Source: Chloroherpeton thalassium ATCC 35110 (GTDB lineage Bacteria > Bacteroidota > Chlorobiia > Chlorobiales > Chloroherpetonaceae). Taken from it: 64,000 nucleotides of DNA. The stretch covers positions 2,524,001 through 2,588,000 of the forward strand of contig NC_011026.1 of NCBI RefSeq assembly GCF_000020525.1, read 5' to 3'. Below the pieces are notes generated by a model. It worked only from the letters and a program-made list of their open reading frames with translations. It was not told where the DNA came from and searched no databases. Numbering within the stretch: position 1 is the first letter of the stretch; each line of letters begins with the position of its first letter. Positions 18,080-42,735 of the stretch are shown piece by piece. The translations under genes were made by a program, and so were the position numbers.

Positions 18080-18141
18080 AAAAAAAGAGGTGTCTTTTTT
18101 ATGTGCACAATTACTTGTGAGTAAAATATAACGTTTAGTAA

Positions 18142-20532: not shown

Positions 20533-20536
20533 AAAC

Positions 20537-21106: not shown

Positions 21107-21110
21107 GATT

Positions 21111-22559
21111 ATGTCGTTAAAACAAAAGGCGATTCATGGTTTTATATGGAGCTTTATTGATGCTTTTGCCGGTCAAGGGGTACAGTTTATAATTGGTATA
21201 ATTCTTGCCCGTCTTTTGTCTCCACATGAATTTGGAATTATTGGGATGCTAACTATTTTTATAGCTGTGTCTCAGTCTTTTATAAATAGTGGTTTTGCAA
21301 ATGCTCTTATTCGTAAAAAAAATTGCACTCAAGTAGATTATTCTACTGTCTTTTTTTTTAATGTATTTGTAGGAACTTTATTCTTTGTTTTAATCAATAT
21401 TGTATCTTCCTCAATAAGTGTTTTTTTTAATGAGCCAAAAATTGAGTTGGTTCTTAGCGTTTTATGTTTTGTATTGATTATCGATTCATTTTCAATTATC
21501 CAACGTACGATTCTTACCAAAAGGATTGATTTTAAATTACAAACAAGAATTTCTGTTATTTCTGGATTTATAGCAGGAATAATCGCTGTTTTAGCAGCTT
21601 ATAATGATTTTGGCATTTGGAGTTTAGTTTTACTTCAATTAATACGCCAAAGTTTAGTTGGTATCTTTTTGTGGTTATGGAATGATTGGCGCCCAACCAT
21701 CGTGTTTAGTTTCGACGCATTTAAAGAAATGTTTGGATTTGGAAGCAAGTTGCTTATTAGTGGTTTAATAGATACAATTTATAAAAATATTTATTATTTT
21801 GTAATTGGTAAGTATTTTTCTCCTGTTGAACTTGGATATTACTCAAGAGCGGATCAATTTAAAAATTTACCTTCACAAAATATAACAGGGATTATACAAC
21901 GAGTAAGTTATCCTGTTTTAGTAAAACAACAAGATGATATTCCTATGCTTAGAAATAGTTATCGTAAATTGATTCGAAGTATTATGTTTTTAACATTTGT
22001 TTTAATGTTGGGAATGGCAGCTTCGGCAAAGTATATAATTTTAGTTTTAATAGGTGAAAAATGGTTCAATTCTATTATATACCTTCAAATGTTGTGCTTC
22101 GTTGGAATGTTATATCCTCTTCACGCATTAAATCTCAATATGCTTAATGTACAAGGTCGTTCGGATATCTTTCTTTGGTTGGAAATTATAAAGAAAATAT
22201 TAGCTATTCCAATCATTATAATTGGAATTAGTTTTGGTATCAAATCTATGATTATGGGAATGATGATTAATACATGGATTGCTTATTACTTGAATAGTTA
22301 TTGGTCTGGAAAACTCATTGGTTATTCTATGTTAGAACAGCTAAAAGATATTTTCCCTTCATTTATTTTAGCTTCTATTAGTGCGATTGTGATATATCTC
22401 ACGGGTGAAATATTAAATACTTCAGATTTTATCGTTTTAGCAATACAGATTATTCTTGGAATTTTAGTTACAATTGGTGTATCTGAAGCAATTAAATTTC
22501 AGGATTATTTCTATTTAAAAGGAATTCTAGTGGAAAAATTTTCAACGCTTAAAATATGA
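21111..22559 (+). CDS. wzx: Wzx-type polysaccharide flippase
   Basis: A 482-residue integral membrane protein of the MOP/MATE-related family with about 12-14 helices. It should flip undecaprenyl-linked repeat units across the inner membrane. The N-terminus (GFIWSFIDAFAGQGVQFIIGI, ARLLSPHEFGIIGML) and YYSRADQFKNLP are characteristic of the MviN/WzxC subgroup. It overlaps the following aminotransferase gene by 4 bp (ATGA). Confidence 0.9.
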   Translation: MSLKQKAIHGFIWSFIDAFAGQGVQFIIGIILARLLSPHEFGIIGMLTIFIAVSQSFINSGFANALIRKKNCTQVDYSTVFFFNVFVGTLFFVLINIVSSSISVFFNEPKIELVLSVLCFVLIIDSFSIIQRTILTKRIDFKLQTRISVISGFIAGIIAVLAAYNDFGIWSLVLLQLIRQSLVGIFLWLWNDWRPTIVFSFDAFKEMFGFGSKLLISGLIDTIYKNIYYFVIGKYFSPVELGYYSRADQFKNLPSQNITGIIQRVSYPVLVKQQDDIPMLRNSYRKLIRSIMFLTFVLMLGMAASAKYIILVLIGEKWFNSIIYLQMLCFVGMLYPLHALNLNMLNVQGRSDIFLWLEIIKKILAIPIIIIGISFGIKSMIMGMMINTWIAYYLNSYWSGKLIGYSMLEQLKDIFPSFILASISAIVIYLTGEILNTSDFIVLAIQIILGILVTIGVSEAIKFQDYFYLKGILVEKFSTLKI

Positions 22560-23674
22560 CGCATCAAGACGATAAACCTGTTTATGTAACGCAGCCATTT
22601 CTTCCACCGCTTGAAGAGTTTATCCCTTATCTTGAAGATATTTGGGAAAGGAAATGGCTTACAAATAATGGCCATTACCATCAAGAACTGGAAAAATCTT
22701 TGTGTGAATATTTAGGGGTTAAACATATTTCTCTTTTTAGTAATGGAACACTTGCTTTAATTACCGCTCTTCAGGCGTTGAGAATTACAGGTGAGGTGAT
22801 TACCACACCTTACTCGTTTGTTGCAACCACGCATTCTTTATGGTGGAACAACATTAAGCCTGTATTTGTTGATATTGAACCTCAATTTTTTAATATCGAC
22901 CCTGAAAAAATAGAAGCAGCTATTACCCCAAAAACCACCGCCATTTTGCCTGTTCATGTTTATGGCAATCCATGTAACGTGGAGCGAATTCAAGAAATTG
23001 CTGATGCCTATGGTTTGCATATAATTTATGATGCAGCCCATGCATTCGGGGTAAAGTACAACAGCAGTTCTTTGATGAATTGGGGCGATTTATCTGTGAT
23101 AAGTTTCCATGCAACTAAAGTGTTCAATACATTTGAAGGTGGGGCGATTATTTGTCATGACGAAAGGACCAAAAAGCGGATTGATTTTTTGAAAAATTTT
23201 GGATTTGCAGGAGAAACGACCGTTGTCGCTCCCGGCATCAATGCAAAAATGAATGAAATTCAGGCAGCTTTTGGAATGTTACAACTTAAGTATATTGATA
23301 AAGCAATTTTAAGACGAAAAGAAATTACAAATTTTTATAGAGATAATTTAAAAAATATCCCCGGAATCTCATTTTTCGATGAATGCCCTAACGTAGTCCA
23401 TTCTTATACCTATTTTCCAATTACGATTGATTCAGCTATTTATGGAAAAACACGTGATGACGTATATTCTGAATTAAAAGCAAAAGGTATTTTTACAAGG
23501 CGGTATTTCTATCCATTAATTAGTCAATTTCCTACATATAAGGGTTTGCCTTCTTCAAATCGTGAAAATTTGCCGGTTGCAAATGCGGTATCTGAGAAAG
23601 TGCTGTGTTTGCCATTATATCCTGATATAGAATATGATACCATGAAAAAGATATGTCATCTTTTTCATTTTTAA
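22556..23674 (+). CDS. DegT/DnrJ/EryC1/StrS sugar aminotransferase
   Basis: A 372-residue PLP enzyme that aminates a nucleotide-linked keto sugar. The PLP Lys lies in SFHATKVFNTFEGGA. SNGTLALITAL and PYSFVATTHS form the phosphate and ring contacts, and YDAAHAFG carries the Asp that binds the pyridine nitrogen. Family and reaction type are clear, but the position aminated and the donor sugar are not. Start and stop are tightly packed between wzx and an ATP-grasp fusion gene. It is a second aminotransferase, distinct from the PglE-like one at 43373. Confidence 0.9.
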   Translation: MTHQDDKPVYVTQPFLPPLEEFIPYLEDIWERKWLTNNGHYHQELEKSLCEYLGVKHISLFSNGTLALITALQALRITGEVITTPYSFVATTHSLWWNNIKPVFVDIEPQFFNIDPEKIEAAITPKTTAILPVHVYGNPCNVERIQEIADAYGLHIIYDAAHAFGVKYNSSSLMNWGDLSVISFHATKVFNTFEGGAIICHDERTKKRIDFLKNFGFAGETTVVAPGINAKMNEIQAAFGMLQLKYIDKAILRRKEITNFYRDNLKNIPGISFFDECPNVVHSYTYFPITIDSAIYGKTRDDVYSELKAKGIFTRRYFYPLISQFPTYKGLPSSNRENLPVANAVSEKVLCLPLYPDIEYDTMKKICHLFHF

Positions 23675-23701
23675 CTGTATCCTGGTTTAAACTTCTTATT
23701 C

Positions 23702-25735
23702 ATGAATAATATGAAAAAATATAATATTGGTATTTCTTGTATTGGTAGCGGTGTTGGACAGTCGGTAATTAACTCGCTTCGTCTTTCAAGATTGCCAATA
23801 AAAACAATAGGTTTTGGTACAAATCCATTTGCTTATGGTGCGTATGATTGTGATGAATATGATTATACACCAACGATTTATCAAGAGAATTATATAGATA
23901 AGCTAATCGAAAAGTGTAAGGAATATAAAGTAGATTTGATAATACCAGGGATGGATGATGAAGCCCTAATCTTTTCAAATAACAAATCAAAATTTGAAGC
24001 GGCTGGCATAAAAGCAATTTTTTCTGAAGAGCCTCTCAATACTATATGTCGCGATAAGGAAAGAATGAGTGAGGAGTTAAATAAGGTTTGTGATGTTTTT
24101 GTTAAAAGTTATGATAAGGAAACATTAGAAAATGATATTTCCAAAGGATTGGTTCAATTTCCCTTTATAGCAAAACCACGAGGCGGTTTTGCATCTAAAG
24201 GTATTGAAATTATTAATGGAATAGATGATCTTACAAAAATCTCTGATGAACACATTCTTCAAGAACTTGCTATACCAACAAAGGATGACCCGAATTACGC
24301 CTTTTACATAGGACAAATTGCTAAAAATCGCAATCCGCAAGTATCAGAAATCTCAATTCAGTTGGTATATAGTCCGAAAGGGGAACTTATGGGGAGAATG
24401 GCTTCCTATAATAAATTGAACAATGGTATTCCTATTGAGATTGTTCCATATGAGAATGAGTATGTATGGCTGGTCATTGATCAACTCACCCCCACATTTC
24501 TTGAATTGGGTTTGCGAGGTCCATTAAATATTCAAGGCAGATTAACTGAAAATGGTTTAAAGATTTTTGAAATGAATCCACGCTTTACGGGGATAACCGG
24601 TCTGAGAGCTTTAATGGGATTCAATGAAGTTGAAGCGTGCGTGAAAGAATGGTTGGAGTTAGATAAAGGAAAAAACAAATTATCCTTTAATTATGGACGT
24701 TTTGGAATGCGCCAGACGGCTGATAAATCGGTTGCAATTGAGCGAAATCAAGAAGTAGCTGATTTGTTTAAACAGTTGAATAAAAGCAAGATTAAAAACA
24801 AAAAAGTTATTTTTATTACAGGTATTACTGGGTATTTAGGTCAAAATTTAGTGAATGAGTTAATAAAATATCCGAATTTTGAAATATGGGGTTTTGGAAC
24901 TGATAAAGATAAAACAACGCATTTATTTGAAGGGAAAATTCATTCAATATATGATAATGAGGATTTAAGAAAAGGATTTATTCAGTTTGGTAATGTAGAT
25001 ATTTTACTTCATCTTGGGTTTGCTCGGCCACATAATGGATACCAGAAAATTGCCGAGAGCCTTCAATTTACCCATGAGCTTTTTACGCGAGCTGCTTCTC
25101 ATCAAATTCCTGCAATTATAAATATTTCCTCACAAAGTGTATATGGTTTGGAAACGCCGCCTCTCTGGACAGAAAAAACTCCTGTTGCGCCACAGACTGT
25201 ATATGCTCAAGCAAAATATTCAACCGAATTGTTTTTAAAAACCTTGAAACAGACTAATGAACAACTTCATTGTAGTTCATTGCGTTTAGGTACTTTAGCT
25301 GGTAGTGGATTTGGTTTGACTGAGGTTGACTTCCTTTCAAAAATAGTACAACAAGCTTTATCAGGTCAACCTATCAAAATAATTGGAGGTATGCAGCAGA
25401 TGGAACGGTTTGATGTGCGGGATGCAGTTCAAGCAATATTTAAAATGCTTCAATCCGATTCAAGTACATGGAAGCCCATATATAATGTAAGTTCAGGAGA
25501 CGTTAATTCTTTAATTGATATTGCTAAAATGGTTATTAGTATAGCGTCGAAGAAAAATGATGGGAAAATATCGGAGATAATAATTGATAAAAAAGAGATT
25601 CAGATGAAATTTGGAATGGATTCTTCTTCCTTTTATGAAGATTTGTCATGGAACCCAACGTATAAAATCGAAGATACAATTAACTCACTGGTAAGTTATT
25701 TTATGAAAAATCAAAAAAAATCATATAGGATTTAG
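23702..25735 (+). CDS. ATP-grasp ligase fused to NAD-dependent sugar epimerase/dehydratase
   Basis: A 677-residue two-domain protein. Residues 4-340 resemble carbamoyl-phosphate-synthase-type ATP-grasp enzymes: a pre-ATP-grasp Rossmann part (GISCIGSGVGQSVINSLRLS), the ATP-binding FIAKPRGGFASKGIEI, and the metal-binding end GLKIFEMNPRFTGITG. After a linker, residues about 360-670 form an extended SDR (IFITGITGYLGQNLV, LLHLGFARPHNG, NISSQSVYG, and YAQAK with the catalytic Tyr and Lys). The fusion suggests a ligase step coupled to sugar redox chemistry on one substrate; the product is unknown. I see no frameshift at the junction. Confidence 0.82.
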   Translation: MNNMKKYNIGISCIGSGVGQSVINSLRLSRLPIKTIGFGTNPFAYGAYDCDEYDYTPTIYQENYIDKLIEKCKEYKVDLIIPGMDDEALIFSNNKSKFEAAGIKAIFSEEPLNTICRDKERMSEELNKVCDVFVKSYDKETLENDISKGLVQFPFIAKPRGGFASKGIEIINGIDDLTKISDEHILQELAIPTKDDPNYAFYIGQIAKNRNPQVSEISIQLVYSPKGELMGRMASYNKLNNGIPIEIVPYENEYVWLVIDQLTPTFLELGLRGPLNIQGRLTENGLKIFEMNPRFTGITGLRALMGFNEVEACVKEWLELDKGKNKLSFNYGRFGMRQTADKSVAIERNQEVADLFKQLNKSKIKNKKVIFITGITGYLGQNLVNELIKYPNFEIWGFGTDKDKTTHLFEGKIHSIYDNEDLRKGFIQFGNVDILLHLGFARPHNGYQKIAESLQFTHELFTRAASHQIPAIINISSQSVYGLETPPLWTEKTPVAPQTVYAQAKYSTELFLKTLKQTNEQLHCSSLRLGTLAGSGFGLTEVDFLSKIVQQALSGQPIKIIGGMQQMERFDVRDAVQAIFKMLQSDSSTWKPIYNVSSGDVNSLIDIAKMVISIASKKNDGKISEIIIDKKEIQMKFGMDSSSFYEDLSWNPTYKIEDTINSLVSYFMKNQKKSYRI

Positions 25736-25803
25736 CTTAGAATAATCATTTTTCTGAATGATATTCAATTTTTTTAGTTGATAGAAAGTTAAGAAAATAA
25801 TTT

Positions 25804-26853
25804 ATGAAAATGACTAATTTATTTTATCCATTAGTAAAATTCATACAAAATCGTAGCTTAGAAGAAGCGCGTGAAATTTATGAACAGCGAATCACAGATG
25901 CGATTGATGTTTATAATAAGCATCATGAAAATTTTATTCTAAGGGATTGCCCTTTTTGTGGAGCATCGGAATATGAGCAATGTGAGGATTTTCATAATTG
26001 TTATAAAGTAGTGAAATGTAAGCTATGCGGTAGTCAATATGTGAATCCAGCACCAAATATTGAGGCTCTTCAAGATTATTACAATAATTCAGAGTGTAAT
26101 AAAATGCTTGATAAGATTGTTAAGAATCGGCAAAAACACACATCCAGTAGTTTTATTTTAGATGATAGAATTAATGCTGTTATAGATTGTCTAACTCAAA
26201 ATAGCAAGCAAGATAACATAAATATTCTTGAAGTTGGTTGTGCATCAGGTGCATTTCTTGCAAAGTTGAAAAATGTTTTAATGGAAAAATTTCCGAGTAA
26301 AGAAATATCTTATTCAGGTATTGATATAGATGGAAATGCTATCAATACTAAGGTAGATGATTCATTAAACTTGATATGGTCTTCAGTTGAAGATTTTGTT
26401 AAAACGAATAAGCATTCTTATGATATTATATTGCACTTTGAGTTAATAGAGCATCTTGTTGAACCATTTGTGTTTTCAAGATATGTTCATGATATGCTCA
26501 AACAAGGCGGTTTTATGATTTTTACGACACAGAACGCAAATGGTTTGGAGATGAAACTTTCAAATTATAATGATTTCCGATTGATTGCTCATAGCATTTT
26601 TCCGCCGATGCATTTAAACGCATTTAGCACGACAAATGTTCTTCATTTTGCTATAAGAAGTGGATTTAAAGTTGTTAAAATTGAAACACCAGGCAAATTG
26701 GATGTTGATATGGTAACAATTACGAAAGAGCAAGCATTTGATGACGGCTTGAAAATGATTGCTAATTTGGATGATGCAACAAAAGGATTACTTCAATATT
26801 TGGTATCAATGTTGGGTTGTAGTAGCCATATGCAATGTGTTTTAAAAAAGTAA
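25804..26853 (+). CDS. Class I SAM methyltransferase with N-terminal zinc ribbon
   Basis: A 349-residue protein. An N-terminal four-Cys ribbon (CPFCGASEYEQC and CKLCGSQYVNP) precedes a Methyltransf_23-type SAM domain with INILEVGCASGAFLAKL (motif I), YSGIDIDGNAI and IILHFELIEHL. Such Zn-ribbon methyltransferases are common in sugar and capsule clusters. The target group is unknown. Its TAA stop at 26851-26853 is directly followed, in the same frame, by an FkbM methyltransferase remnant. Confidence 0.85.
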   Translation: MKMTNLFYPLVKFIQNRSLEEAREIYEQRITDAIDVYNKHHENFILRDCPFCGASEYEQCEDFHNCYKVVKCKLCGSQYVNPAPNIEALQDYYNNSECNKMLDKIVKNRQKHTSSSFILDDRINAVIDCLTQNSKQDNINILEVGCASGAFLAKLKNVLMEKFPSKEISYSGIDIDGNAINTKVDDSLNLIWSSVEDFVKTNKHSYDIILHFELIEHLVEPFVFSRYVHDMLKQGGFMIFTTQNANGLEMKLSNYNDFRLIAHSIFPPMHLNAFSTTNVLHFAIRSGFKVVKIETPGKLDVDMVTITKEQAFDDGLKMIANLDDATKGLLQYLVSMLGCSSHMQCVLKK

Positions 26854-27306
26854 ATCTTAAATAAGAAAGTAATAACTTTTCTGTATAAAATTATCTCTGA
26901 TAAAGAAACAAGGTATGCAGTCAATAATGTTAGTGTGGATTTTATAAAATTAGATACACAAGGCACAGAATTGGATATTTTAAAAGGAGGCGTTAAAACA
27001 CTAGGAAATGTTTTAGGAATAGAAGTAGAGGTTTCATTTAGTGAAATATATAAATATCAATCTTTATTTAGTGATGTGAGTGATTTTTTGAGAGAACAAG
27101 GATTTGAGTTCTTTGAATTTTTTAATCAATATAGATGGAGAAGAATGGAGTTCAAAAGTAAAAAAGGGCAGCTTGTTTTTGCTGATGCTTTATTTTTAAG
27201 AAATATAGAGGAAGTAATAACATTAGATATAGAAAAAAGATATACATTTGCCACTATTGCAAAAGCATACGGCAAAGAAGATTTGATTCCTTTCTTAAAT
27301 ATTTGA
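26854..27306 (+). pseudogene. FkbM-family methyltransferase remnant
   Basis: Only the C-terminal half of an FkbM domain is present: VDFIKLDTQGTELDILKGG, then VLGIEVEVSFSEIYKYQ and FADALFLRN. The SAM-binding N-terminus (VxDxGAxxG) is absent. The frame is open from the base after the preceding methyltransferase stop, and a GTG at 26935 is the only plausible start. An enzyme lacking the SAM site should be inactive, so this is most likely a deletion relic. Confidence 0.75.
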
Positions 27307-27319
27307 TGAGTTTTAATTT

Positions 27320-28852
27320 ATGAAAGTACTAGATTGCACTCTCCGTGATGGGGGATATTATACCAATTGGGATTTTGATGGCGAGTTGGTGCAAAAATAT
27401 TTTTCGTCCTTTGAAAAATTACCAGTAGACTATTTGGAAATAGGGTATAGAAGTCTTCCTGAAAAAGAGTATAGGGGAAGGTTTTATTACTTGCCAAATT
27501 TTGTAATTGATGAAATTACTCAGTTGAGCAAAAATAAATTGTTGGCAATTATGCTCAATGAAAAAAGTGTTCAGCCGAAAAATCTTGATAAAATATTGGA
27601 TGGCTTAGCACCCGTAATTTCATTAATCCGGTTGGCAGTTGATCCAAAAAATTTTGACAGTGCTCTTCTTTTAGGAGAAGCAATTAGGAAAAGGGGATTT
27701 GACGTTGCTTTCAATCTCATGTATATGTCAAAATATGCAAATGATGAAAGTTTTCTTGGAAAACTTTCATCACTTAATGGGCTTGCAAGTTATGTGAATA
27801 TGGTGGATTCTTATGGTGGTATGGTTCCAGAGCAAGTGAAAATATTGATTCATAATGTAAAATCATATTGTCGTGAAGCCATTGGTTTTCATCCGCATAA
27901 TAATATGGAGCTTGCTTTTGCTAATTCACTGGCCGCTATAGATGCTGGTTGTGAAATAGTTGATACCACAGTCATGGGTATGGGGCGCGGTGCTGGAAAT
28001 TTGAGGACTGAATTATTACTGACATATATGGCCTCAAAAAATAAGTTAGAATTGGATTTTAATGTTCTAGCGAGCTTAATTGAAGCATGGATGCCGTTAT
28101 ATAGAAAATATGAATGGGGAACAAATTTACCCTATATGTTTTCTGGGGGAAATTCATTGCCACAGAAAGATGTAATGGAATGGGTTTCACAACGATTTTA
28201 TTCATATAACTGTATTATTCAAGCTTTGCATAATCAAAAATCTGGAGAAGCGGATAATATCAGGCTACCGGTTTTTAATCCTAATAAAAGTTTTGACAAT
28301 GTTATTGTTGTCGGTGGCGGTCCAAGTGCTATCTTGCATGCTGATGCAATAAAAAGATTTATTGATAAATTAGGAAATGTTTGTGTTATTCATGCAAGTT
28401 CAAAAAATGCAAAAAAATATGACGATGTTGAAGTACCTCAATATTTTTGTCTAGTTGGTAATGAAGGTCATAGATTAGAGGTTACTTTTCAACAATTAGA
28501 GCATTTCTATGGTCAATGTATTTTACCACCGTATCCTCGTAAAATGGGGACTTACATTCCTGAACGGATAAAGAATTCCTGTTATGAATTGGAAGATATT
28601 TTATTCACAAATAAATACAAAGATGCTCATACGGCACTGGCTTTACAAACTGCATTGAACTTGAGTGCGAAACAAGTGTTTTTGGTGGGATATGATGGGT
28701 ATACAAATGAAGCAATGACAATGAGAGAGCAAGGCTTAGTAAATGAAAACGAATATTTATTTTCATCTTTTCAAAAGACGAAAATAGATTTAGTATCCTT
28801 GCTTCAGACGAATTATTCTATTAGAATAAATTCTGTATATGAAATGATTTAA
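27320..28852 (+). CDS. HMGL-like (DRE-TIM) aldolase fused to a C-terminal Rossmann-like domain
   Basis: A 510-residue protein. Residues 1-270 are a DRE-TIM metallolyase: VLDCTLRDGGYYTNWDF carries the RD...metal Asp pair, GFHPHNNMELAFAN the HxH metal ligands and DTTVMGMGRGAGN the closing loop. The family includes 4-hydroxy-2-oxovalerate aldolase and HMG-CoA lyase, which make or break bonds with pyruvate or acyl-CoA. Residues about 330-510 (VIVVGGGPSAILHADAIKRF, ALALQTALNLSAKQVFLVGYDGY) resemble the DUF115/MptE-like fold. A KdsB-like cytidylyltransferase and a HAD phosphatase follow, suggesting synthesis of a ulosonic-type acid. Substrates are inferred. Confidence 0.78.
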   Translation: MKVLDCTLRDGGYYTNWDFDGELVQKYFSSFEKLPVDYLEIGYRSLPEKEYRGRFYYLPNFVIDEITQLSKNKLLAIMLNEKSVQPKNLDKILDGLAPVISLIRLAVDPKNFDSALLLGEAIRKRGFDVAFNLMYMSKYANDESFLGKLSSLNGLASYVNMVDSYGGMVPEQVKILIHNVKSYCREAIGFHPHNNMELAFANSLAAIDAGCEIVDTTVMGMGRGAGNLRTELLLTYMASKNKLELDFNVLASLIEAWMPLYRKYEWGTNLPYMFSGGNSLPQKDVMEWVSQRFYSYNCIIQALHNQKSGEADNIRLPVFNPNKSFDNVIVVGGGPSAILHADAIKRFIDKLGNVCVIHASSKNAKKYDDVEVPQYFCLVGNEGHRLEVTFQQLEHFYGQCILPPYPRKMGTYIPERIKNSCYELEDILFTNKYKDAHTALALQTALNLSAKQVFLVGYDGYTNEAMTMREQGLVNENEYLFSSFQKTKIDLVSLLQTNYSIRINSVYEMI

Positions 28853-28890
28853 TCGTTGGATGAAGATTTTTTATCTCAAATATCAAATGG

Positions 28891-29619
28891 ATGAAAAACG
28901 TTTTAGTTATACCAGCAAGGTTGAAATCTACAAGGTTACCTCGAAAGCCATTAATAAAAATTAAAGGTAAAACTGTTATTGAGCGGACTTATACGCAATG
29001 TATAAAAGCAGTTGCCCCCGAGAATGTTTATGTTGTCACAGATAGCGATGAAATATTTAAGCATTGTCGAAGTTTTGGCGCAAAAGTAGTCATGACTTCT
29101 GAAAGTTGTTTAACAGGCACGGATAGAGTGGCTGAATTTTCAAAGGAAATAGAGGCTGATTATTATATTAATGTGCAAGGTGATGAACCGCTGATAAACC
29201 CTGAGGATATTACGAAAGTTAATGCGTCAATAGAGAATAATAAAGGTAAGATTATAAATGGTTATGCCCCAATAGACAATGAATTTGATTATAGAAGCAA
29301 AAGCATTCCGAAAGTTGTTTTTCGGCAAGATGGACGATTACTGTATATGTCAAGATCTCCGATTCCAAGTAATAAGGAAAACATATTTATAGAGGCTTGG
29401 CGGCAAATTTGTATATACGCCTTTCCTAAATCGGCATTAAATGATTTTTCCATATTAAAACAAAAAACAAGATTAGAAAATAATGAAGATATAGAGATTT
29501 TAAGATTTCTGGAAATGGGGTATGAAGTTTATATGATTGAATTATCATCTGAATCAATTGCAGTTGATACAATAGAGGACTTGCAAAAAGTCGAGAAAAA
29601 ATTAATGAATGAAAAGTGA
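28891..29619 (+). CDS. KdsB/NeuA-like CMP-sugar synthetase
   Basis: A 242-residue nucleotidyltransferase of the 3-deoxy-manno-octulosonate cytidylyltransferase type, which activates an acidic sugar as a CMP derivative. LVIPARLKSTRLPRKPL is the CTP-binding signature, YINVQGDEPLI is the metal-binding motif, and AVDTIEDLQKVE is the typical C-terminal end. It may act on KDO itself or on a KDO-like product of the neighbouring aldolase; its place in a variable capsule locus favours the latter. Confidence 0.88.
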   Translation: MKNVLVIPARLKSTRLPRKPLIKIKGKTVIERTYTQCIKAVAPENVYVVTDSDEIFKHCRSFGAKVVMTSESCLTGTDRVAEFSKEIEADYYINVQGDEPLINPEDITKVNASIENNKGKIINGYAPIDNEFDYRSKSIPKVVFRQDGRLLYMSRSPIPSNKENIFIEAWRQICIYAFPKSALNDFSILKQKTRLENNEDIEILRFLEMGYEVYMIELSSESIAVDTIEDLQKVEKKLMNEK

Positions 29620-29622
29620 TAA

Positions 29623-30240
29623 ATGAGGTTTAATTATAAAACAATATTTTGGGATTTTGATGGCGTTTTAATGGAATCTAATACGATTCGTGATATTGGT
29701 TTTCGTAAAGTTCTTCAAAATTATCCGTCAGAACAAGTTGAACAATTAATTGTTTTTCATAAGAAAAATGGAGGTCTCTCCAGATACGTAAAGTTTAGAT
29801 ATTTTTTTGAAGATATTCGTTTTGAGAAAGTAGATGAAGAAAAAATTTATCAATTAGCTGATGATTTTTCCGTATTGATGCGAAATCTTCTTATTGATAA
29901 TTCATTGTTAATCGATGAAACAATTGCTTTCGTAAAAGATAATTATGATAAATACGATATGTATATTGTTTCGGGATCAGATGAGAGAGAGCTGCGATTT
30001 TTATGCGAAAAATTATTCATTGATAAGTATTTCAAAGGAATTTATGGTTCGCCTACCCCAAAAACAGCGTTGATTGAAAAGGTTTTGCGTGAAAACACGG
30101 CTTATTTAAGAGAAGAATGCGTTTTAGTTGGGGATTCAATAAATGATTATGAAGCGGCAAAACAAAATAGTATTCATTTTGAGGCATATAATAGTGATGA
30201 ATTGAATAAATTTAATACAAATAAAGAAAGTATATTTTAA
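29623..30240 (+). CDS. HAD-superfamily phosphatase
   Basis: A 205-residue HAD hydrolase with the nucleophile motif FWDFDGVLMES (DxD), motif II YIVSGSDERE, a Lys in TPKTAL and motif IV CVLVGDSINDYEAA. An alpha-helical cap follows motif I, as in the beta-phosphoglucomutase group. It starts four bases after the stop of the CMP-sugar synthetase gene and is probably the 8/9-phosphate phosphatase of the same pathway, by analogy to KdsC. Confidence 0.85.
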   Translation: MRFNYKTIFWDFDGVLMESNTIRDIGFRKVLQNYPSEQVEQLIVFHKKNGGLSRYVKFRYFFEDIRFEKVDEEKIYQLADDFSVLMRNLLIDNSLLIDETIAFVKDNYDKYDMYIVSGSDERELRFLCEKLFIDKYFKGIYGSPTPKTALIEKVLRENTAYLREECVLVGDSINDYEAAKQNSIHFEAYNSDELNKFNTNKESIF

Positions 30241-30243
30241 GTT

Positions 30244-31182
30244 ATGTTGATTCAAATAGACGGTTGGTTTGGTGCAGGCAAAAGCGTTTTATGGATGTTA
30301 CTTGATGGCCATCCTGATGTTTTTTGTAGTCCGATACATGATTATGCCTATTGTGCATTTCTTGATCAATCCGATAATCTGGACTGGGTTAAAACAAAGC
30401 ATATAGAAATCCTTAGAAAAGCACTTGCCCGTACTCAATATTACAAATTTGAAAAAGTTTTCAGGGATGGCTTTATGACTTTTGAGTTTTCAACTGATGA
30501 TATCATGAAAATCCCTTATCAAGTTGACTACTATAAGTTTGATAAGCTATTTATTGATAAACTTTTACAAAAAGACAGCTGGACTCTCAGTGAAATTACT
30601 GAAACCCTCTATCATTCAATTTGGGAAAGTCATTATCGAAGTTCTGAAAATCTTGCAGAGCCGAAATTTTTTGCGAGCATGAGCAATGCGCTTTACATTG
30701 ATAAATACCATCACTTTCCTGTTATTTTTCCTGGAGGCAAAAGCATTCAGGTAAGAAGAAGGGTTGAAAAGATTATTGCAACCCGTTCAAAAAGAAAACC
30801 CAGACCTGAAGATTTTAAAACCTGGACTTTTTTTAGCGATCCTTTAGAGAAGCGAATAGCTGAAGGCGAAGTAGAGAAAATTCTCAGCTTTTATGACCAG
30901 TACGATGAATTGGTTAGTAAGTATCCAGATGTTTTTATGGTGGTTGACTTTTTAGACTTGGTGAACGATACTGAAAAAGCCATTGCCAAAGTTACTGAAT
31001 TTCTCAATATCCCTTTTCATCCTAATCTTAAAATCGCTTCATACAGTGGCAAAGAATTGATTAACAATGGGAAAAAGTATATTGGTCAAGAAAATGACAA
31101 TATTGACGAATTACTCACCAAACAAGAGCAAGCAATAATCCATGAGCGAATTGAACAATATTACAGCAATAAAAAGCAATAG
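30244..31182 (+). CDS. Sulfotransferase-like P-loop protein
   Basis: A 312-residue protein. It begins with a P-loop (IQIDGWFGAGKSVLWMLLDGHPDVFCSP), where G.GKS-L..lL..HP matches the 5'-PSB loop of PAPS-dependent sulfotransferases. The C-terminal part has FLNIPFHPNL, common in the same family. A sulfated exopolysaccharide is plausible for a marine bacterium, but no PAPS synthesis genes are in the window, and GxGKS could also indicate a kinase. It lies three bases after the HAD gene. Confidence 0.68.
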   Translation: MLIQIDGWFGAGKSVLWMLLDGHPDVFCSPIHDYAYCAFLDQSDNLDWVKTKHIEILRKALARTQYYKFEKVFRDGFMTFEFSTDDIMKIPYQVDYYKFDKLFIDKLLQKDSWTLSEITETLYHSIWESHYRSSENLAEPKFFASMSNALYIDKYHHFPVIFPGGKSIQVRRRVEKIIATRSKRKPRPEDFKTWTFFSDPLEKRIAEGEVEKILSFYDQYDELVSKYPDVFMVVDFLDLVNDTEKAIAKVTEFLNIPFHPNLKIASYSGKELINNGKKYIGQENDNIDELLTKQEQAIIHERIEQYYSNKKQ

Positions 31183-31202
31183 AATTGCATAAAGATTTAA
31201 AC

Positions 31203-32114
31203 ATGAACGAAGAGAATCAATACCAATATACCCCATTACCCGAGCCAATTCCTATTACCGAACAAGATTGGCCTGAAGGAACAAAACCTATGGTTACTAC
31301 ACGAACGATGACTTATATGCATGAGAATTATATAAGAGAGTGTATAGAGGGTATATTAATGCAAAAGACAACATTCCCCGTTCAAGTTTTAATCCATGAT
31401 GATGCTTCCACAGATATGACTGCTAACATAGTAAAGGAATACGCGGATAAATATCCAAAATTAATAACAGCTTATTTTCAAAAAGAAAATTCTTATACTA
31501 AATCTGATAAAATAGAAAGAAGAAAGCCATTTTTTGATTTAATAGCAGGTAAGTATATTGCTCTTTGTGAAGGTGATGATTATTGGATTGACCCTTATAA
31601 ATTGCAGAAGCAGGTGGGTTTTCTAGAGGCAAATTCTGATTACGGTTTAGTTTATACAGAAATAAACTGTTATCATCAAAAAAGCAGAAACTTGGAAGAA
31701 AAGGCTTTTAAAAATAGATTAGGTATTCATGATAATACATTTGAAGATTTTTTAATTCATGGTTGGTTTATAGCTCCATGCACTTGGTTATATAGGGAAA
31801 GATATAATAATTATAAGTTAAAAAATAACAATTTAATTGGTGATTTGCCGTTGTTATTAAATATTTCTTCAAAATCAAAAATTGGATTTTTGAAAGATGT
31901 AACATCTACTTATCGAGTTTTAAATAAATCTGCATCAAGTAGAAATGATATTATTAAAAGAATAAAAATCCAGTTTAATACTTTATCTATTAGAAAAGAA
32001 TATGCTGTGCAATATGATATTTATGACAAGCTTAAATATAAAATGAACTTAATGCTTGTAATTCAAATGATAAAAATATTGTATTTTTTTTTCCCTTTGA
32101 AGAAAAAAAAATAA
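31203..32114 (+). CDS. Family 2 glycosyltransferase
   Basis: About 303 residues from ATG 31203; an in-frame TTG at 31185 would add six residues. The N-terminus is Pro-rich. The GT-A fold begins at about residue 30 (VTTRTMTYMHENYIRECIEGIL), with FPVQVLIHDDASTDMT and YIALCEGDDYWIDPYKLQKQ carrying the DDAS and EGDDYW signatures. The C-terminus has one hydrophobic segment before a Lys run. A T9 tract lies in its last codons, close to a region of short indels. Sugar specificity is unknown. Confidence 0.88.
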   Translation: MNEENQYQYTPLPEPIPITEQDWPEGTKPMVTTRTMTYMHENYIRECIEGILMQKTTFPVQVLIHDDASTDMTANIVKEYADKYPKLITAYFQKENSYTKSDKIERRKPFFDLIAGKYIALCEGDDYWIDPYKLQKQVGFLEANSDYGLVYTEINCYHQKSRNLEEKAFKNRLGIHDNTFEDFLIHGWFIAPCTWLYRERYNNYKLKNNNLIGDLPLLLNISSKSKIGFLKDVTSTYRVLNKSASSRNDIIKRIKIQFNTLSIRKEYAVQYDIYDKLKYKMNLMLVIQMIKILYFFFPLKKKK

Positions 32115-32173
32115 GCCTAATGTGAAATCAATTTCGCATTTAATTTTAATAAAAAATGGTGTATACAGTAATA

Positions 32174-32323
32174 ATGCTTCATTTCTTTATTGTTCTGTAT
32201 ATGTATTTTAAAGAACAAAATTTTGGAATAAAAAGCATCTATTCTTTCTCTGTTATCTTGTTTGTTTTTGTCCCTATTTTTATAATTATTATTATCGTGT
32301 TTATGATCCAACATTATTTATGA
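32174..32323 (+). CDS. N-terminal piece of a Wzy-like polymerase, split by a frame change
   Basis: A 49-codon frame from ATG 32174, very hydrophobic (FFIVLYMYFKEQ, VILFVFVPIFIIIIIVFM). Its TGA at 32321-32323 overlaps the ATG of the next frame (ATGA, 32320-32323). Two membrane helices of this kind fit the start of a Wzy-type polymerase whose remainder is 32320-33342. Either the gene is broken by a one-base shift or the two parts are coupled. Confidence 0.45.
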   Translation: MLHFFIVLYMYFKEQNFGIKSIYSFSVILFVFVPIFIIIIIVFMIQHYL

Positions 32324-33342
32324 ATATCCCTCTGTTATTTGCGACGATTTTTTTGCATAATACGCATTTAATAGAAAAACATACCGATGGAAAATTAATT
32401 AAAATGATTGATTGGTATAGTGGATATAATGTATTTTATATATATGTGTTGCTGTTAATAATGGGTTTGTCGGCAATTATTCTAAATCTGCAAAATCTTA
32501 TATATTTTTCTGTGTTTGGTGTTTACGTGATTAATGTTTTTTGTCTTTATGCTTCTTATGTAAGAAAAAGATATATAGATGTTCTTTTTATATTGCTATT
32601 GATTTCAGCAACGGGGGGGCTTTTTATATTTATATACACTTGGAGCGGGTTTGGGCGATTATTGTTTGCTAAATATTTTATTGTTATATTATTCGTTTGG
32701 AGTCCGGTTTTGACTAAAAAAAGAAATACAATTATAAAAACATTAATATTGTTTCTTTTTCCTGTTATTGTTGGGGTAAGTGGGATTTTAAGAGTGCAAC
32801 AATTAAGACCAAATGAATATGATCTAAACAAATCAATAACTACTGGAGAGGGCGCAGGTAGTATATTTTCAACAATGGAACATTCTGAATTAGTTGTTAA
32901 TCATATTATGGATGAAAGATATGAGTTGCTTTATGGGGAAAGTTATTTGGCCACTATATTTTTTTGGATACCACGTAACTTATGGCCGAATAAGCCTGTG
33001 GGATTCGGGAAACAAATGGTAAAATGGATACAGCCAAATCTTTATCATACAAATCATTCATTAGCTGGTAATTATGTGGCAGAAGCTGTAGCTAATTACG
33101 GTTATTTTGGATATATTCTTGCAATAGCTATGATATATATAGTGATAAAGCTTATGAGCTATTATGTGAAATCTAATAATATTTATAAAATTATCATAGC
33201 TGTTATATATATAGTATCAATACCTGATTTAATATGGGGCGGTTTTTTTTCTTTTTTTGTTAGGGCTACATTATCATCTATGTTTTGTGTTGTAATTATA
33301 TTTTTTATGAAAAAAATAATTATCTATCTTTATCTGTTTTAA
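32320..33342 (+). CDS. wzy: Wzy-like O-antigen/capsule polymerase
   Basis: A 340-residue multi-spanning membrane protein with about ten helices (ISATGGLFIFIYTWSGFGRLLF, PVLTKKRNTIIKTLILFLFPV). A large periplasmic loop (LYGESYLATIFFWIPRNLWPNKPVGFG, LAGNYVAEAVANYG) is typical of oligosaccharide repeat-unit polymerases. It would join repeat units flipped by Wzx. The family is usually 400 residues or longer; the missing N-terminal helices appear in another frame at 32174-32323. The identification rests on topology, loop and context, since Wzy sequences are poorly conserved. Confidence 0.7.
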   Translation: MNIPLLFATIFLHNTHLIEKHTDGKLIKMIDWYSGYNVFYIYVLLLIMGLSAIILNLQNLIYFSVFGVYVINVFCLYASYVRKRYIDVLFILLLISATGGLFIFIYTWSGFGRLLFAKYFIVILFVWSPVLTKKRNTIIKTLILFLFPVIVGVSGILRVQQLRPNEYDLNKSITTGEGAGSIFSTMEHSELVVNHIMDERYELLYGESYLATIFFWIPRNLWPNKPVGFGKQMVKWIQPNLYHTNHSLAGNYVAEAVANYGYFGYILAIAMIYIVIKLMSYYVKSNNIYKIIIAVIYIVSIPDLIWGGFFSFFVRATLSSMFCVVIIFFMKKIIIYLYLF

Positions 33343-33349
33343 AGCGAAA

Positions 33350-33904
33350 AGACGATTTATATAAAAGTGACTTTCTGTGATGATGTTATTTATGTCGGTC
33401 AATTAAACGAATGGAAAAATATTCTCGTTTTGACTAAATTTTTTGTTAAAAACAAAGGGTTTGGTTTTGAAAAACAACGTCAAAGTGCTATGTCGTTTGC
33501 CTCATTCTGAAACAATTGAAAATATATCATAGTGTACATTGTTGGTTATTCCGTCTATATTTGACGGTTGGGGCGCGTTGTTGTAAATGAAGCTCTTTTA
33601 TGTGGATCGCCTGTGATAGCAAGTTCAAATATTGGTGCTAATGTGTTATTAATTATTAAGTGGGAAAAGAGGAGATGTTTTTGAAGCAGGAAATTTGCAA
33701 GATTTGAAAAGAAAGCCCATAGATTGGTCAAATAAAAAGATGAGTAATGAAGATTATGAAAATATAAAGAAGTGGGCGGAATTAAATATTCATCCAGTTG
33801 CAGCAGTAAGTTATTTTGAAGGAATTATCAATTATGTGTTTGGTGAAGATAAATCTAAAATCAAGCCTATTCCACCATGGTTAAGTAATTATAATGTTGA
33901 ATGA
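33350..33904 (+). pseudogene. Degraded family 4 glycosyltransferase (C-terminal half)
   Basis: The six frames show pieces of one GT4 C-terminal domain. VIYVGQLNEWKNI (about 33385-33420) is the start of the donor domain. VIPSIFDGWGAL (about 33546) is followed in another frame by VVNEALLCGSPVIASSNIGANVL, and in a third frame by GDVFEAGNLQDLKRKPIDW, running to the stop at 33904. At least two frameshifts and an internal stop separate them, and the N-terminal acceptor domain is absent. The last part (from 33695) remains open for 69 codons and overlaps the next gene by 4 bp. Confidence 0.8.
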
Positions 33905-34923
33905 TGCTTTTTCTTGATGCTTTATATATAAATAATAGTGGCGGTAAGGTTTTACTTGATTATTTAATCGAGCAATTTGAATTGTCTGGTTTCGCTGTTT
34001 TTTATCTATTAGATGAGAGAATAAAAAATACACACCCTCACATAGATTTATCTAAAAATAAAATTCATTACTTAAAAGCAAGTTTTTTAAAAAGACATCT
34101 TTTTTATCTAAACAATAAAACGGAATTTAGTCATGTTTTTTGTTTTGGTAATATCCCGTCAAGCGTAAAATTAAAAATTCCTGTTTATACATATTTTCAT
34201 CAAACTTTGTATATAAAAAAGTCTGGAAACGAATCGCTTAAAAAATATATGCTTTTATTGCTTAAATCTAATGTATTGGATTTTTACAAAAAGAATACGA
34301 ATAAATGGTTAGTTCAATCCAGTTCCGTAAAAAATGATCTGGTAAAACGATTTGCATTAAATACTGATGATGTTTTGGTTTTACCTTTTTACCCACCGTT
34401 ATCTGAATTTAAACATGATTCAAAATTAAAGAAGAAAAATTCTTTTTTATTTGTCAGTGGGGGGAATCCTCATAAAAATCATATTTTGTTATTGAAGGCT
34501 TTTGAGATAATTTATAAAAAAGGTTTTTCAGCAGAATTGCATTTGACTATATCTGATGATTTTTCTCTTTTAAAAGATGATATTGACTCTTTAAATAAGA
34601 TTGGCGTTCCAATTATTAATCACGGTTTTGTTCCAAGAAATAAAATAGCGGAGTTATATTCAAAAGTTGAGTATTGCATTTATCCATCATTGAGAGAAAG
34701 TTTTGGTTTAGGACTAATTGAAGCGATGGAAAGTAATTGTAAAGTTATTGCTTCTGATTTGCCTTATGTTCATGCTGTTTGCAAGCCTTCTTTGGTTTTT
34801 GACCCGTATTCAGTGGATAGTATTGAACAGGCAATAGAAACAGCTCTTACAAAAAATATTCCTGATACTCATCAATTAGTGCATAATCAAATAGATGATT
34901 TAATAGAATTATTTCAGAATTAA
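33901..34923 (+). CDS. Family 4/1 glycosyltransferase
   Basis: A 340-residue GT-B enzyme. The N-terminal half is divergent (LDALYINNSGGKVLLDYLIEQFE). The C-terminal donor domain has FLFVSGGNPHKNHILLLKAF and YPSLRESFGLGLIEAMESNCKV, where the EX7E pair (ESFGLGLIE) is intact. It overlaps the GT4 relic by 4 bp and the following oxidoreductase gene by one base (TAATG). The sugar is unknown. Confidence 0.88.
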   Translation: MMLFLDALYINNSGGKVLLDYLIEQFELSGFAVFYLLDERIKNTHPHIDLSKNKIHYLKASFLKRHLFYLNNKTEFSHVFCFGNIPSSVKLKIPVYTYFHQTLYIKKSGNESLKKYMLLLLKSNVLDFYKKNTNKWLVQSSSVKNDLVKRFALNTDDVLVLPFYPPLSEFKHDSKLKKKNSFLFVSGGNPHKNHILLLKAFEIIYKKGFSAELHLTISDDFSLLKDDIDSLNKIGVPIINHGFVPRNKIAELYSKVEYCIYPSLRESFGLGLIEAMESNCKVIASDLPYVHAVCKPSLVFDPYSVDSIEQAIETALTKNIPDTHQLVHNQIDDLIELFQN

Positions 34924-37043
34924 TGAAACAAATTATACAATCGTTCAAGACGGGAGAAACAATACTTGAAGAAGTTCCTGCGCCACAAGTAAAACAGGGA
35001 ACTGTTTTGATTAAAACGGCATATAGCTTGGTTTCGTTAGGTACTGAACGTATGTTAGTTGAGTTTGGAAAATCAAATTTGCTTCAAAAAGCCCGTCAAC
35101 AACCGGATAAGGTCAATCAAGTATTGGATAAAATGAAAACTGATGGGGTAGTGCCTACTCTTGAAGCAGTTTTTAACAAATTAGGTGAACCTCTTCCGCT
35201 TGGGTATTGCAATGTGGGGGAAGTAATTGCCGTCGGTCAAGGCGTCAGCGAGTTTAAAAAGGGGGATAGGGTGGCTTCCAATGGCCCTCATGCCGAGTTT
35301 GTATGCGTTCCGAAAAATTTAGTTGCGGGAATTCCTTCAGAAGTTTCATACGAGGAAGCCGCATTTACAGTTATCGGGAGCATCGGTTTGCAAGGTATTC
35401 GTTTATGTAATCCGACATTTGGCGAGACGATTGTCGTAACGGGGCTAGGACTCATCGGGTTGCTCACGGCTCAAATGCTTTTAGCTAACGGCTGTAATGT
35501 CATTGGCATTGATTTTGACGCCTCCAAATTGGAGCTTGCAAAGCAATGGGGAATTCAGACCATTAACCCAGCCAAAGGAGATGACCCCGTTAAAGTAGTG
35601 ATGCAATATACAAACGGTATTGGGGCTGACGGTGTGATTATTACCGCTTCGACGAAAAGCAATGAGGTGATTTCTCAAGCGGCTCAGATGAGTCGCAAGC
35701 GTGGGCGTATTGTGTTGGTCGGCGTTATTGGGCTTGACATTAGCCGTGCCGATTTTTACGAAAAAGAACTCTCGTTCCAAGTGTCTTGTTCTTATGGCCC
35801 CGGTCGTTATGACGATAATTATGAGCAAAAAGGGCAAGATTATCCGATCGGTTTTGTTCGCTGGACTGAAAAACGCAACTTTGATGCTATTTTGCAGGCA
35901 ATCGCTGTAGGGAAGCTCAATGTAAAGCCGCTAATTACAGAAGTTGTAGAATTGGAAAACTATCTTCGTGTTTACGGGGATATGAAAAATTCCGGTGCAG
36001 TTGCGTCGTTGCTAAAATATCAAGCCGATGAAAGCCGTTATAATAATACGATAAAAATATCGGAAAATAAGAATACCGGAAAAAATAATGGAATAGCAAT
36101 TATCGGAGCCGGCAATTTTACTAAAATGACCGTCTTACCTGCATTCAAAAATTGCTCTGCAAATCTTTCTCACATTGTCAGTTCGGGTGGTGTTTCCGGA
36201 ACAGCATTAGCTAAAAAGTTTGGGATTGTAAATAGCACGACCGATTATCATGCGGTTTTGAAAGATGAAAATGTTAATACTGTTATGATTACAACAAGGC
36301 ATAATTTACATGCCTCAATGACAGTAGATGCGTTACAAAATGGAAAAAATGTTTTTGTAGAAAAGCCCCTTGCTTTAAATAATGAAGAGTATGAAGCGAT
36401 TAAAGAGTCGTATAAAAAGAGTTCAAACACTATTACCGTCGGTTTTAATAGAAGATTTTCCCCTTTTGCGGCAAAAATGAAGTCATTATTAGGGGTAAGC
36501 AATAGCCCTATACATGTGGTTACGACAATGAATGCCGGTGCTATTCCAAGCAACGTATGGGTACATGATTTGAAAATAGGAGGTGGGCGTATTGTTGGAG
36601 AAGCATGCCATTTTATTGATTTGATTACTTTTCTTACGGGAAGTAAAGTGATTTCTGTTTGTATGACGGCATTAGGTGAAAATCCGGATGAAAGCACGGA
36701 CAATGCTACGATTCTTTTGAAATATGAAAACGGTTCCAACGGCGTTATTAATTATTTTGCAAATGGAAGTAAATCGTATGATAAAGAGCGAGTTGAAGTT
36801 TATTCGCAAGAAAGAACGTTAATTTTACAGAACTGGCGAAAACTTACCGGATTTGGTTTTAATGGTTTTACAAGTATGGCTTCTAAAATGGATAAAGGCC
36901 ATGAAGCTCAGTTTCGGTTGCTTACGGAACAAGTAAATAACGGAGGCCCCGCTCTTATCCCCTTTGAAGAAATTGAAAATACTACCAAGGCTACATTTGC
37001 TGCTATACAGAGTTTAAAAGAATTTCGTTGGATCGCAGTGTGA
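34923..37043 (+). CDS. Bi-domain oxidoreductase: MDR dehydrogenase fused to Gfo/Idh/MocA
   Basis: A 706-residue fusion. Residues 1-360 are a medium-chain (zinc-alcohol-dehydrogenase-like) reductase with YSLVSLGTERML, GDRVASNGPHAEF and NAD-binding TVIGSIGLQG/VVTGLGLIGLLTAQ. Residues about 385-706 are a Gfo/Idh/MocA domain with GIAIIGAGNFTKMTVLPAF, VFVEKPLAL (catalytic EKP) and GGGRIVGEACHFIDL. Such fusions sit next to heparinase-type genes in many capsule loci, as here. They probably oxidise or epimerise a nucleotide-bound sugar, but the reaction has not been assigned. Confidence 0.85.
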   Translation: MKQIIQSFKTGETILEEVPAPQVKQGTVLIKTAYSLVSLGTERMLVEFGKSNLLQKARQQPDKVNQVLDKMKTDGVVPTLEAVFNKLGEPLPLGYCNVGEVIAVGQGVSEFKKGDRVASNGPHAEFVCVPKNLVAGIPSEVSYEEAAFTVIGSIGLQGIRLCNPTFGETIVVTGLGLIGLLTAQMLLANGCNVIGIDFDASKLELAKQWGIQTINPAKGDDPVKVVMQYTNGIGADGVIITASTKSNEVISQAAQMSRKRGRIVLVGVIGLDISRADFYEKELSFQVSCSYGPGRYDDNYEQKGQDYPIGFVRWTEKRNFDAILQAIAVGKLNVKPLITEVVELENYLRVYGDMKNSGAVASLLKYQADESRYNNTIKISENKNTGKNNGIAIIGAGNFTKMTVLPAFKNCSANLSHIVSSGGVSGTALAKKFGIVNSTTDYHAVLKDENVNTVMITTRHNLHASMTVDALQNGKNVFVEKPLALNNEEYEAIKESYKKSSNTITVGFNRRFSPFAAKMKSLLGVSNSPIHVVTTMNAGAIPSNVWVHDLKIGGGRIVGEACHFIDLITFLTGSKVISVCMTALGENPDESTDNATILLKYENGSNGVINYFANGSKSYDKERVEVYSQERTLILQNWRKLTGFGFNGFTSMASKMDKGHEAQFRLLTEQVNNGGPALIPFEEIENTTKATFAAIQSLKEFRWIAV

Positions 37044-37067
37044 TTTTAAAATTACGTACACGCAATC

Positions 37068-38954: not shown

Positions 38955-38957
38955 TTT

Positions 38958-40193: not shown

Positions 40194-40211
40194 ATTTTGG
40201 ATTTAATAAAT

Positions 40212-40745: not shown

Positions 40746-40817
40746 AAACGGTGGGTGTTATTGTTTTTGGTGAAAAAAAATTCACGTCTAAGATTTAATT
40801 TTTTTGTGATATTAATT

Positions 40818-41810: not shown

Positions 41811-41817
41811 AAAAATA

Positions 41818-42483: not shown

Positions 42484-42511
42484 AGAACGTTATCCTTTTC
42501 AATATAAAATT

Positions 42512-42733
42512 AGTCACGACGTAATGGTTTAGGCTCAAGTTAATGGACGTAATACAATTACGTGGGAAGAAAAGTTTAAATATGATGTATGGTATGTTGA
42601 TAATTATTCTTTTTTGTTAGATATAAAAATACTATTTTTAACTGTATTAAAAGTTTTTAAAAGAGAAGGTATTAGTGCAGCCCAGCATGAGACTATGCCT
42701 GAGTTTTTGGGGACAAATAATAATAAGTATTAA
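42512..42733 (+). pseudogene. C-terminal relic of a second sugar transferase
   Basis: The last 67 codons of a PglC/WbaP-like enzyme are still readable: [45 protein letters not shown] and the tail [14 protein letters not shown], ending at TAA 42731-42733. Just upstream the expected TGL-A junction is broken by an extra base (GGTTTAGGCTCAAG near 42526-42539), and everything before about 42512 is missing. An older gene was apparently replaced or truncated by the cassette 40212-42483. Confidence 0.8.
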
Positions 42734-42735
42734 AA

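Follow-up and report, generated by a model that had tools for sequence, protein, structure and literature searches.

A conserved aldolase-fusion, cytidylyltransferase and HAD hydrolase cassette in Chloroherpeton thalassium as a candidate route to a CMP-activated sugar acid

To our knowledge, all established routes to ulosonic acids activated with cytidine monophosphate (CMP) begin with a synthase that depends on phosphoenolpyruvate (PEP), whether they lead to 3-deoxy-D-manno-octulosonic acid (Kdo), to sialic, legionaminic or pseudaminic acid, or to deaminoneuraminic acid (Kdn). The window analysed here, a stretch of 64,000 nucleotides (nt) from Chloroherpeton thalassium ATCC 35110 (NC_011026.1, positions 2,524,001 to 2,588,000), encodes a cassette of three genes for an aldolase fusion protein, a KdsB-like cytidylyltransferase and a haloacid dehalogenase (HAD) hydrolase. 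The cassette shares with the Kdo pathway (KdsA, KdsC, KdsB) a KdsB-type cytidylyltransferase and a HAD protein, and presumably the CMP activation of an acidic sugar, but it lacks a PEP-using synthase, its HAD protein is not KdsC-like and the sugar-side residues of its synthetase are changed. The parts are ordinary, and their combination is unusual yet conserved. The trio probably forms the central part of a pathway devoted to supplying a surface polysaccharide with a CMP-activated 2-keto-3-deoxy sugar acid. On the best reading, in which chemistry, aldehyde and product are all predicted, a pyruvate aldolase would lead to a CMP-activated 2-ulosonic-type acid that is neither Kdo nor a NeuB product. 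Computed support comes from the domains, the conservation of the gene set, its independence from the Kdo enzymes, the altered synthetase, the glycosyltransferase company and the protein folds.

The three open reading frames (ORFs) lie on the forward strand exactly as the initial annotation had them, tightly packed and separated by 38 and 3 nt. Each product scores above the cut-off of its Pfam family. The first gene (27320..28852, 510 amino acids) encodes a bifunctional-looking protein, the fusion of a metal-dependent HMGL/DRE-TIM aldolase (residues ~1-310) to a C-terminal, Rossmann-type domain resembling MptE, Maf and GT42 proteins (residues ~315-510, 28262..28852). It is followed by the KdsB-like cytidylyltransferase, a putative CMP-sugar-acid synthetase (28891..29619, 242 amino acids), and by the class-I HAD hydrolase, a predicted phosphatase (29623..30240, 205 amino acids).

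The same gene order recurs in other members of the phylum. Near-full-length fusions, counted at an identity of at least 43%, occur at nine places in eight of 394 sampled genomes of the phylum, the home genome included. At the other eight places the fusion is accompanied by a cytidylyltransferase-type ORF and then by a HAD of the same family (in L039 assigned by 60% identity to the window protein); the HAD reading frame is broken in G203. A second set comprises 80 named loci drawn by the fusion sequence alone, 81 with the window, of which 80 were kept (no fusion ORF was called in L108) and 79 have any downstream gene (L093 ends after the fusion). Three of these loci (L083, L092 and L116) are probably the contigs of G054, G123 and G203, so the genome sample and the locus set are not independent. 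Genes in the loci were counted with hidden Markov models built from those same loci, and a sample of the proteins labelled as cytidylyltransferases was compared with Pfam or NCBIfam.

In all 79 loci a cytidylyltransferase lies at most three genes downstream or one gene upstream of the fusion, in 64 of them immediately downstream, and a same-family HAD is found within four genes in 59 of 79. The subset below 85% identity (n = 64) gives a cytidylyltransferase nearby in 64 of 64, immediately downstream in 52, and a HAD in 48 of 64. When gene order was shuffled 2000 times within the 80 loci, fusion-cytidylyltransferase pairs averaged 6.5 (maximum 15) against 64 observed, and runs of all three genes averaged 0.35 (maximum 4) against 44 observed. 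These within-locus shuffles rule out chance adjacency of the trio.

A remote version of all three genes, in the same order, is present on plasmid NZ_CP081038.1 of the alphaproteobacterium Leisingera sp. M527. The genes are annotated there as ‘aldolase catalytic domain-containing protein’, ‘3-deoxy-manno-octulosonate cytidylyltransferase’ and ‘HAD family hydrolase’, and the products are 28% (over 69% of the query), 42% and 30% identical to those of the window. The C-terminal domain of the Leisingera fusion is also related to that of the window (hhalign probability 97%). Co-occurrence of the trio elsewhere, which had been proposed as a check, is thus borne out by the genome sample, the 79 loci and this plasmid. 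Other cassettes are carried by Phocaeicola vulgatus, Dysgonomonas, Pedobacter, Flavobacterium, Marivirga and others.

Among the sampled genomes of the window's own order there is no other full-length relative of the fusion except a distant type in G319, and the nearest relative is encoded by a Bacteroidetes metagenome-assembled genome (59% identity). The home genome therefore likely gained the cassette from Bacteroidota. The distant type (L014:838-2634) is an aldolase-MptE-like fusion on a 3.5-kb contig, where its neighbours look, by eye, like a thiamine-diphosphate-type enzyme and a HAD of class-II type; it represents another use of such a fusion. Six of seven distant relatives (L013, L015-L019) have no cytidylyltransferase, as judged by eye in the short stretches examined. 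Distant HMGL relatives on plasmids of Priestia and Legionella have other surroundings and are not part of a cassette.

The aldolase domain belongs to the DRE-TIM/HMGL-like superfamily (PF00682, 82.7 bits, cut-off 29). Residues 1-308 of the fusion match PDB entry 3dxi (1.4e-109), which also ranks first in a fold search (Z 44.5); in the model alignment the two share 50% identity over 294 residues. Among the matches listed, the next folds are 4-hydroxy-2-oxovalerate (HOA) aldolases (Z ~31 over 308-311 residues), followed by homocitrate and isopropylmalate synthases (Z 25-26) and HMG-CoA lyases (~23.5). The initial annotation had called this an aldolase of the hydroxy-oxovalerate type, and the ranking of HOA aldolases directly after 3dxi agrees with that. 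Assignment to the hydroxyvalerate aldolases proper is rejected by TIGR03217 (84.3 bits, cut-off 286). Residues R9, D10, H191, H193 and N227 do not vary among the 80 fusions and align with R17, D18, H200, H202 and N236 of DmpG. The R-D, HxH and N residues of DmpG are thus kept, but unlike the DmpG/BphI type the cassette has no aldehyde dehydrogenase partner, and the fusion carries a tyrosine for His21 as well as the extra C-terminal domain.

The 3DXI structure is the N-terminal domain of BVU_2661 from P. vulgatus, a ‘putative aldolase’ of the same family whose full-length homologue is found in locus L098. This P. vulgatus cassette differs from that of the window in its PseF/NeuA-like synthetase and in a 2-keto-3-deoxygluconate (KDG)-kinase-like gene that stands where the window has the HAD gene. 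We found no function or paper for 3DXI or BVU_2661 in the freely licensed PubMed Central (PMC) literature. Searches of the same literature gave no paper on the cassette, which is weak evidence of absence since subscription papers are outside its scope.

The KdsB-like protein matches the cytidylyltransferase family strongly (PF02348, 153.9 bits, cut-off 22.6). Against the KdsB equivalog model TIGR00466 it scores 134.6, below the cut-off of 155.2, and it exceeds the cut-offs of two KdsB subfamily models, one of which is NF009905 (311 bits, cut-off 255). The home genome, a single contig of 3,293,456 bases, encodes a separate KdsB (TIGR00466, 214.6 bits) and a KdsA (TIGR01362, 351.9 bits, cut-off 314). 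This rules out that the window enzyme is the sole genomic KdsB serving normal Kdo, a finding that would have spoken against the initial annotation.

The cassette enzymes also differ from housekeeping KdsBs at defined positions. We compared 29 cassette KdsB-like proteins with 31 housekeeping KdsBs, namely the 30 best TIGR00466 scorers among those assigned a locus plus the home enzyme, a choice that leans to the canonical type. In 25 of the 29, R162 is replaced by K, H172 by Q, G174 by C and Q203 by I, V or L (window numbering), whereas all 31 housekeeping enzymes have R, H, G and Q; the remaining four (L047, L071, L072 and L075) match neither group and were excluded from the comparison. The window protein has K162, Q172, C174 and I203, and T123 is changed to N in 24 of the 25. 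The R, H and Q at these sites we take to be Kdo contacts. The CTP and metal residues look kept, and the Leisingera cytidylyltransferase carries the same QVC and EDIEILRF signature. All altered sites fall in the C-terminal part that corresponds to residues 100-210 of Aquifex KdsB, which PMC3149649 describes as the domain of Kdo binding and dimer formation.

These data bear on a rival idea, in which the cassette would yield ordinary Kdo, or contribute to a NeuB product, for the polysaccharide. The KdsB-like protein would then be a second KdsB of the kind found in capsule loci, whereas the other two proteins, aldolase and HAD, would serve something unrelated. The two subfamily matches fit this idea, as does a place in the home genome where a NeuB-like gene lies beside a KdsC-like gene in an 18-kb stretch whose ORFs show no cytidylyltransferase. 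We nevertheless regard it as quite improbable, given the score below the TIGR00466 cut-off, the fixed sugar-side changes and the NeuA-like enzymes that fill the same slot in other loci. Moreover, G112 carries two cassettes and has no TIGR00466 match, and, as shown next, a further cytidylyltransferase is usual in loci that contain NeuB.

The comparison with nonulosonic acid pathways (NeuB/LegI/PseI) points in the same direction. The cassettes resemble these pathways in that 45 of 79 have a NeuA-like synthetase and in the GT29 and polysialyltransferase-family genes nearby, but a NeuB-type gene is present in only 18 of 80 loci and absent from the other 62. Where NeuB occurs, there are usually at least two (two or three) cytidylyltransferases (15 of 18 loci), whereas 60 of the 62 NeuB-less loci have exactly one. 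With relatedness ignored, the table 15, 3, 1, 60 gives a Fisher p of 2e-12. The simplest bookkeeping assigns one synthetase to the NeuB product and one to the product of the cassette itself. The window locus contains no NeuB-type (PF03102) synthase. The best match in the home genome (3092750-3093460) is ~500 kb from the window's end, and a second one (359691-360269) overlaps a PF00793 match. A NeuB-like synthase that stays below NCBIfam cut-offs lies beside the KdsC-like phosphatase in the home genome (L128:8696-10164), where a CMP-synthetase is not obvious.

Several loci encode candidate enzymes for the transfer of a CMP-activated sugar. Genes of the GT29 sialyltransferase family accompany the cassette in 14 of 80 loci (two were tested, both over the Pfam cut-off). 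PF00777 (GT29) reaches its cut-off in none of the 394 sampled genomes, a contrast that is indicative since the fusion occurs in only eight of these. Eight further loci carry a cluster whose tested member reaches 26.3 bits against the polysialyltransferase family (cut-off 23.3), and MptE-like genes occur in nine loci. Altogether, 31 of 80 loci have one of these three types, 21 of them without NeuB.

The HAD protein is a class-I member (PF13419 HAD_2, 49.8 bits, cut-off 23.8) with conserved D11, D13, S117, K147, D171 and D175, and it scores far under the cut-off of the KdsC model TIGR01670 (17.1 bits, cut-off 106.95). The HAD assignment of the initial annotation thus stands, and its phosphatase function is a prediction. 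Used as bait in the 394 genomes, the protein finds 22 places. Eight of the ten with at least 50% identity lie beside the fusion and two (G119, G368) in no cassette, while the HAD of G203 (38% identity) is again beside the fusion. A KDG-kinase-like PfkB protein replaces the HAD in six loci (L098, L043, L101, L106, L107 and L113) and never occurs together with it; the member in L098 is nearest to KDG kinase 2afb (5e-89).

The C-terminal domain of the fusion had been labelled DUF115-like. Its match to the corresponding MptE-like family is weak (PF01973, 18.3 bits, below the cut-off of 34.6), so the label does not hold at the level of Pfam, whereas the modelled structure does place the domain in the MptE-like/Maf/GT42 fold group. 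The AlphaFold2 model has a predicted local distance difference test score (pLDDT) of 95.5. It aligns with the Maf glycosyltransferase 5mu5 (Z 13.5, root-mean-square deviation (rmsd) 3.6, 182 residues, 13% identity), SteA (Z 12.8), the archaeal HPPK/MptE protein 8sd5 (Z 12.1, rmsd 3.1, 159 residues), CstII and CstI (~11) and thiamine pyrophosphokinase (~10). The likeness to Maf and GT42 sialyltransferases is thus one of fold; the cassette domain differs in its low identity to Maf and in its fusion to an aldolase, and its transferase role is predicted. According to PMC11339370, the Maf protein of Clostridium botulinum accepts N-acetylneuraminic acid (Neu5Ac) and Kdo as donor sugars.

A transferase-type fold, as suggested in the initial annotation, is therefore confirmed by the model, but MptE and thiamine pyrophosphokinase show that kinases share this fold, which thus does not settle the role. 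The domain could instead be an MptE-like kinase or pyrophosphokinase that phosphorylates the aldehyde before aldol addition. Such a role agrees with the matches to 8sd5 and thiamine pyrophosphokinase and with the invariance of D459 and E382 in 80 of 80 fusions, and the phosphate added would explain the HAD. It would also suit the persistence of the domain on the aldolase despite separate sialyltransferase-family genes in 21 of the 62 NeuB-less loci. On the other side, Maf scores the same as or above the kinase folds, CstII and CstI come next, and a common fold decides nothing. We hold a kinase role to be possible and the less likely of the two.

Taken together, we propose that the aldolase domain would add a pyruvate donor, suggested by the HOA fold and by the HpcH company described below, to an aldehyde. 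The presence of the HAD suggests that this aldehyde is phosphorylated and that the HAD then strips the phosphate. The cytidylyltransferase, being of KdsB/NeuA type, would join the keto acid to CMP. The Maf/MptE-like domain may bind a nucleotide or nucleotide sugar and is most likely a CMP-sugar-dependent transferase or a handler of the product; GT29-type or other enzymes could transfer the activated sugar. The pyruvate-aldolase route to an activated acidic sugar put forward in the initial annotation is thus supported as to the cassette, its independence from Kdo and the HOA fold, and remains predicted as to chemistry and product. A six-carbon product is hinted at, with low confidence, by the company of KDG-kinase and KDG-type aldolase genes.

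Several observations weigh against this proposal. Tyr13 occupies the position of DmpG His21 in 80 of 80 fusions; His21 is presumably catalytic in the HOA family, and HOA-like chemistry may therefore not carry over. The cassette cytidylyltransferases fall into three classes (45 NeuA-like, 29 KdsB-like and 5 of a third class). The tree of the fusions requires 17 or more switches of class, and for the two big classes well-supported branches demand 9 and 10. Different loci may thus have different products. Of the 78 loci with 3 kb of downstream sequence, 19 lack the HAD (6 have the KDG-kinase-like PfkB, 13 have neither), and a simple phosphatase step thus does not explain all cassettes. Finally, a class II pyruvate-type aldolase (HpcH/HpaI) occurs in the cassette in nine of 80 loci, including all five of the third class, which leaves the role of the first aldolase there in question.

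Some of these observations would also suit an aldolase whose product is not a sugar acid but, for instance, a branched or acyl substituent or a small hydroxy-keto acid, which would either decorate the polysaccharide or be activated by the cytidylyltransferase. The cytidylyltransferase and HAD would then act in an unforeseen way, for example to give a CDP-linked product via a phosphate. DRE-TIM enzymes catalyze many reaction types, the fusion has Tyr at the HOA His21 site, related HMGL aldolases occur in other contexts, and the KDG-kinase-like gene that replaces the HAD gene in six loci would fit a phosphorylated substrate. However, KdsB/NeuA-type cytidylyltransferases are known for activating cyclic 2-keto acids at the anomeric hydroxyl, and those of the cassettes are of this type; GT29 and polysialyltransferase-family genes nearby likewise argue for a sugar. 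We consider a non-sugar acid unlikely and prefer the CMP-activated 2-ulosonic-type acid.

The weaker HAD matches lead to related gene sets. Among the 11 remaining places, seven stretches were read, and a cytidylyltransferase is present in seven of seven and an HpcH aldolase in five of seven (HAD identity ~30%). A sister cassette without the fusion, consisting of an HpcH/HpaI aldolase, a cytidylyltransferase and a ~30%-identical HAD, is found in L180 (G019), L182 (G252), L183 (G165), L184 (G317) and L186 (G054:C6). In L182 and L183, which belong to the window's order, D-2-hydroxyacid dehydrogenase-like and phosphoheptose-type isomerase-like genes are also recognizable by eye, and L183 has a transaldolase in addition. 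The sister cassette is possibly a second aldolase-based route to an ulosonic acid, with HpcH as the aldolase.

In the window, the trio is embedded in a surface-polysaccharide locus on the forward strand (17339..46410). It encodes an initiating-type sugar transferase, Wzz/Wzc-like proteins, a Wzx flippase, a Wzy-like protein (a weak match), glycosyltransferases, aminotransferases, a PglD-like protein and a Polysacc_synt_2 protein. Directly downstream of the HAD gene, after gaps of 3 and 2 nt, follow a sulfotransferase-family gene (30244..31182, forward strand; PF13469, 29.9 bits, cut-off 27) and a GT2 glycosyltransferase gene (31185..32114, forward strand; PF00535, 53.2 bits). Neither is a constant member of the cassette. 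Directly upstream lies a short FkbM-type methyltransferase ORF (26935-27306, 123 amino acids, GTG start) that covers only the end of its model (115-173 of 173) and is possibly a remnant. The locus also encodes a 677-amino-acid protein in which an ATP-grasp/PylC-like N-terminal region is fused to an NAD-dependent epimerase (23702-25735). A fusion of a zinc dehydrogenase with a GFO/IDH/MocA oxidoreductase (34923-37043) is followed by a heparinase II/III-like protein (37068-38954).

Beyond the window, the cassettes may, tentatively, represent a widespread and so far undescribed class of CMP-ulosonic pathways in which a pyruvate aldolase replaces the PEP synthase and one protein both builds the acid and handles or transfers its CMP form. 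This class would include the HpcH/HpaI sister type, and its acids, possibly six-carbon, would be new to bacterial polysaccharides. If the proposed pathway is true, the prediction of such sugars from genomes would change, as the usual markers KdsA and NeuB would miss the cassette, and its cytidylyltransferase can be annotated as KdsB, which is the case in the Leisingera record. The 3DXI structure, released in 2008, would gain a function, and aldolases and CMP-synthetases of new specificity would become available.

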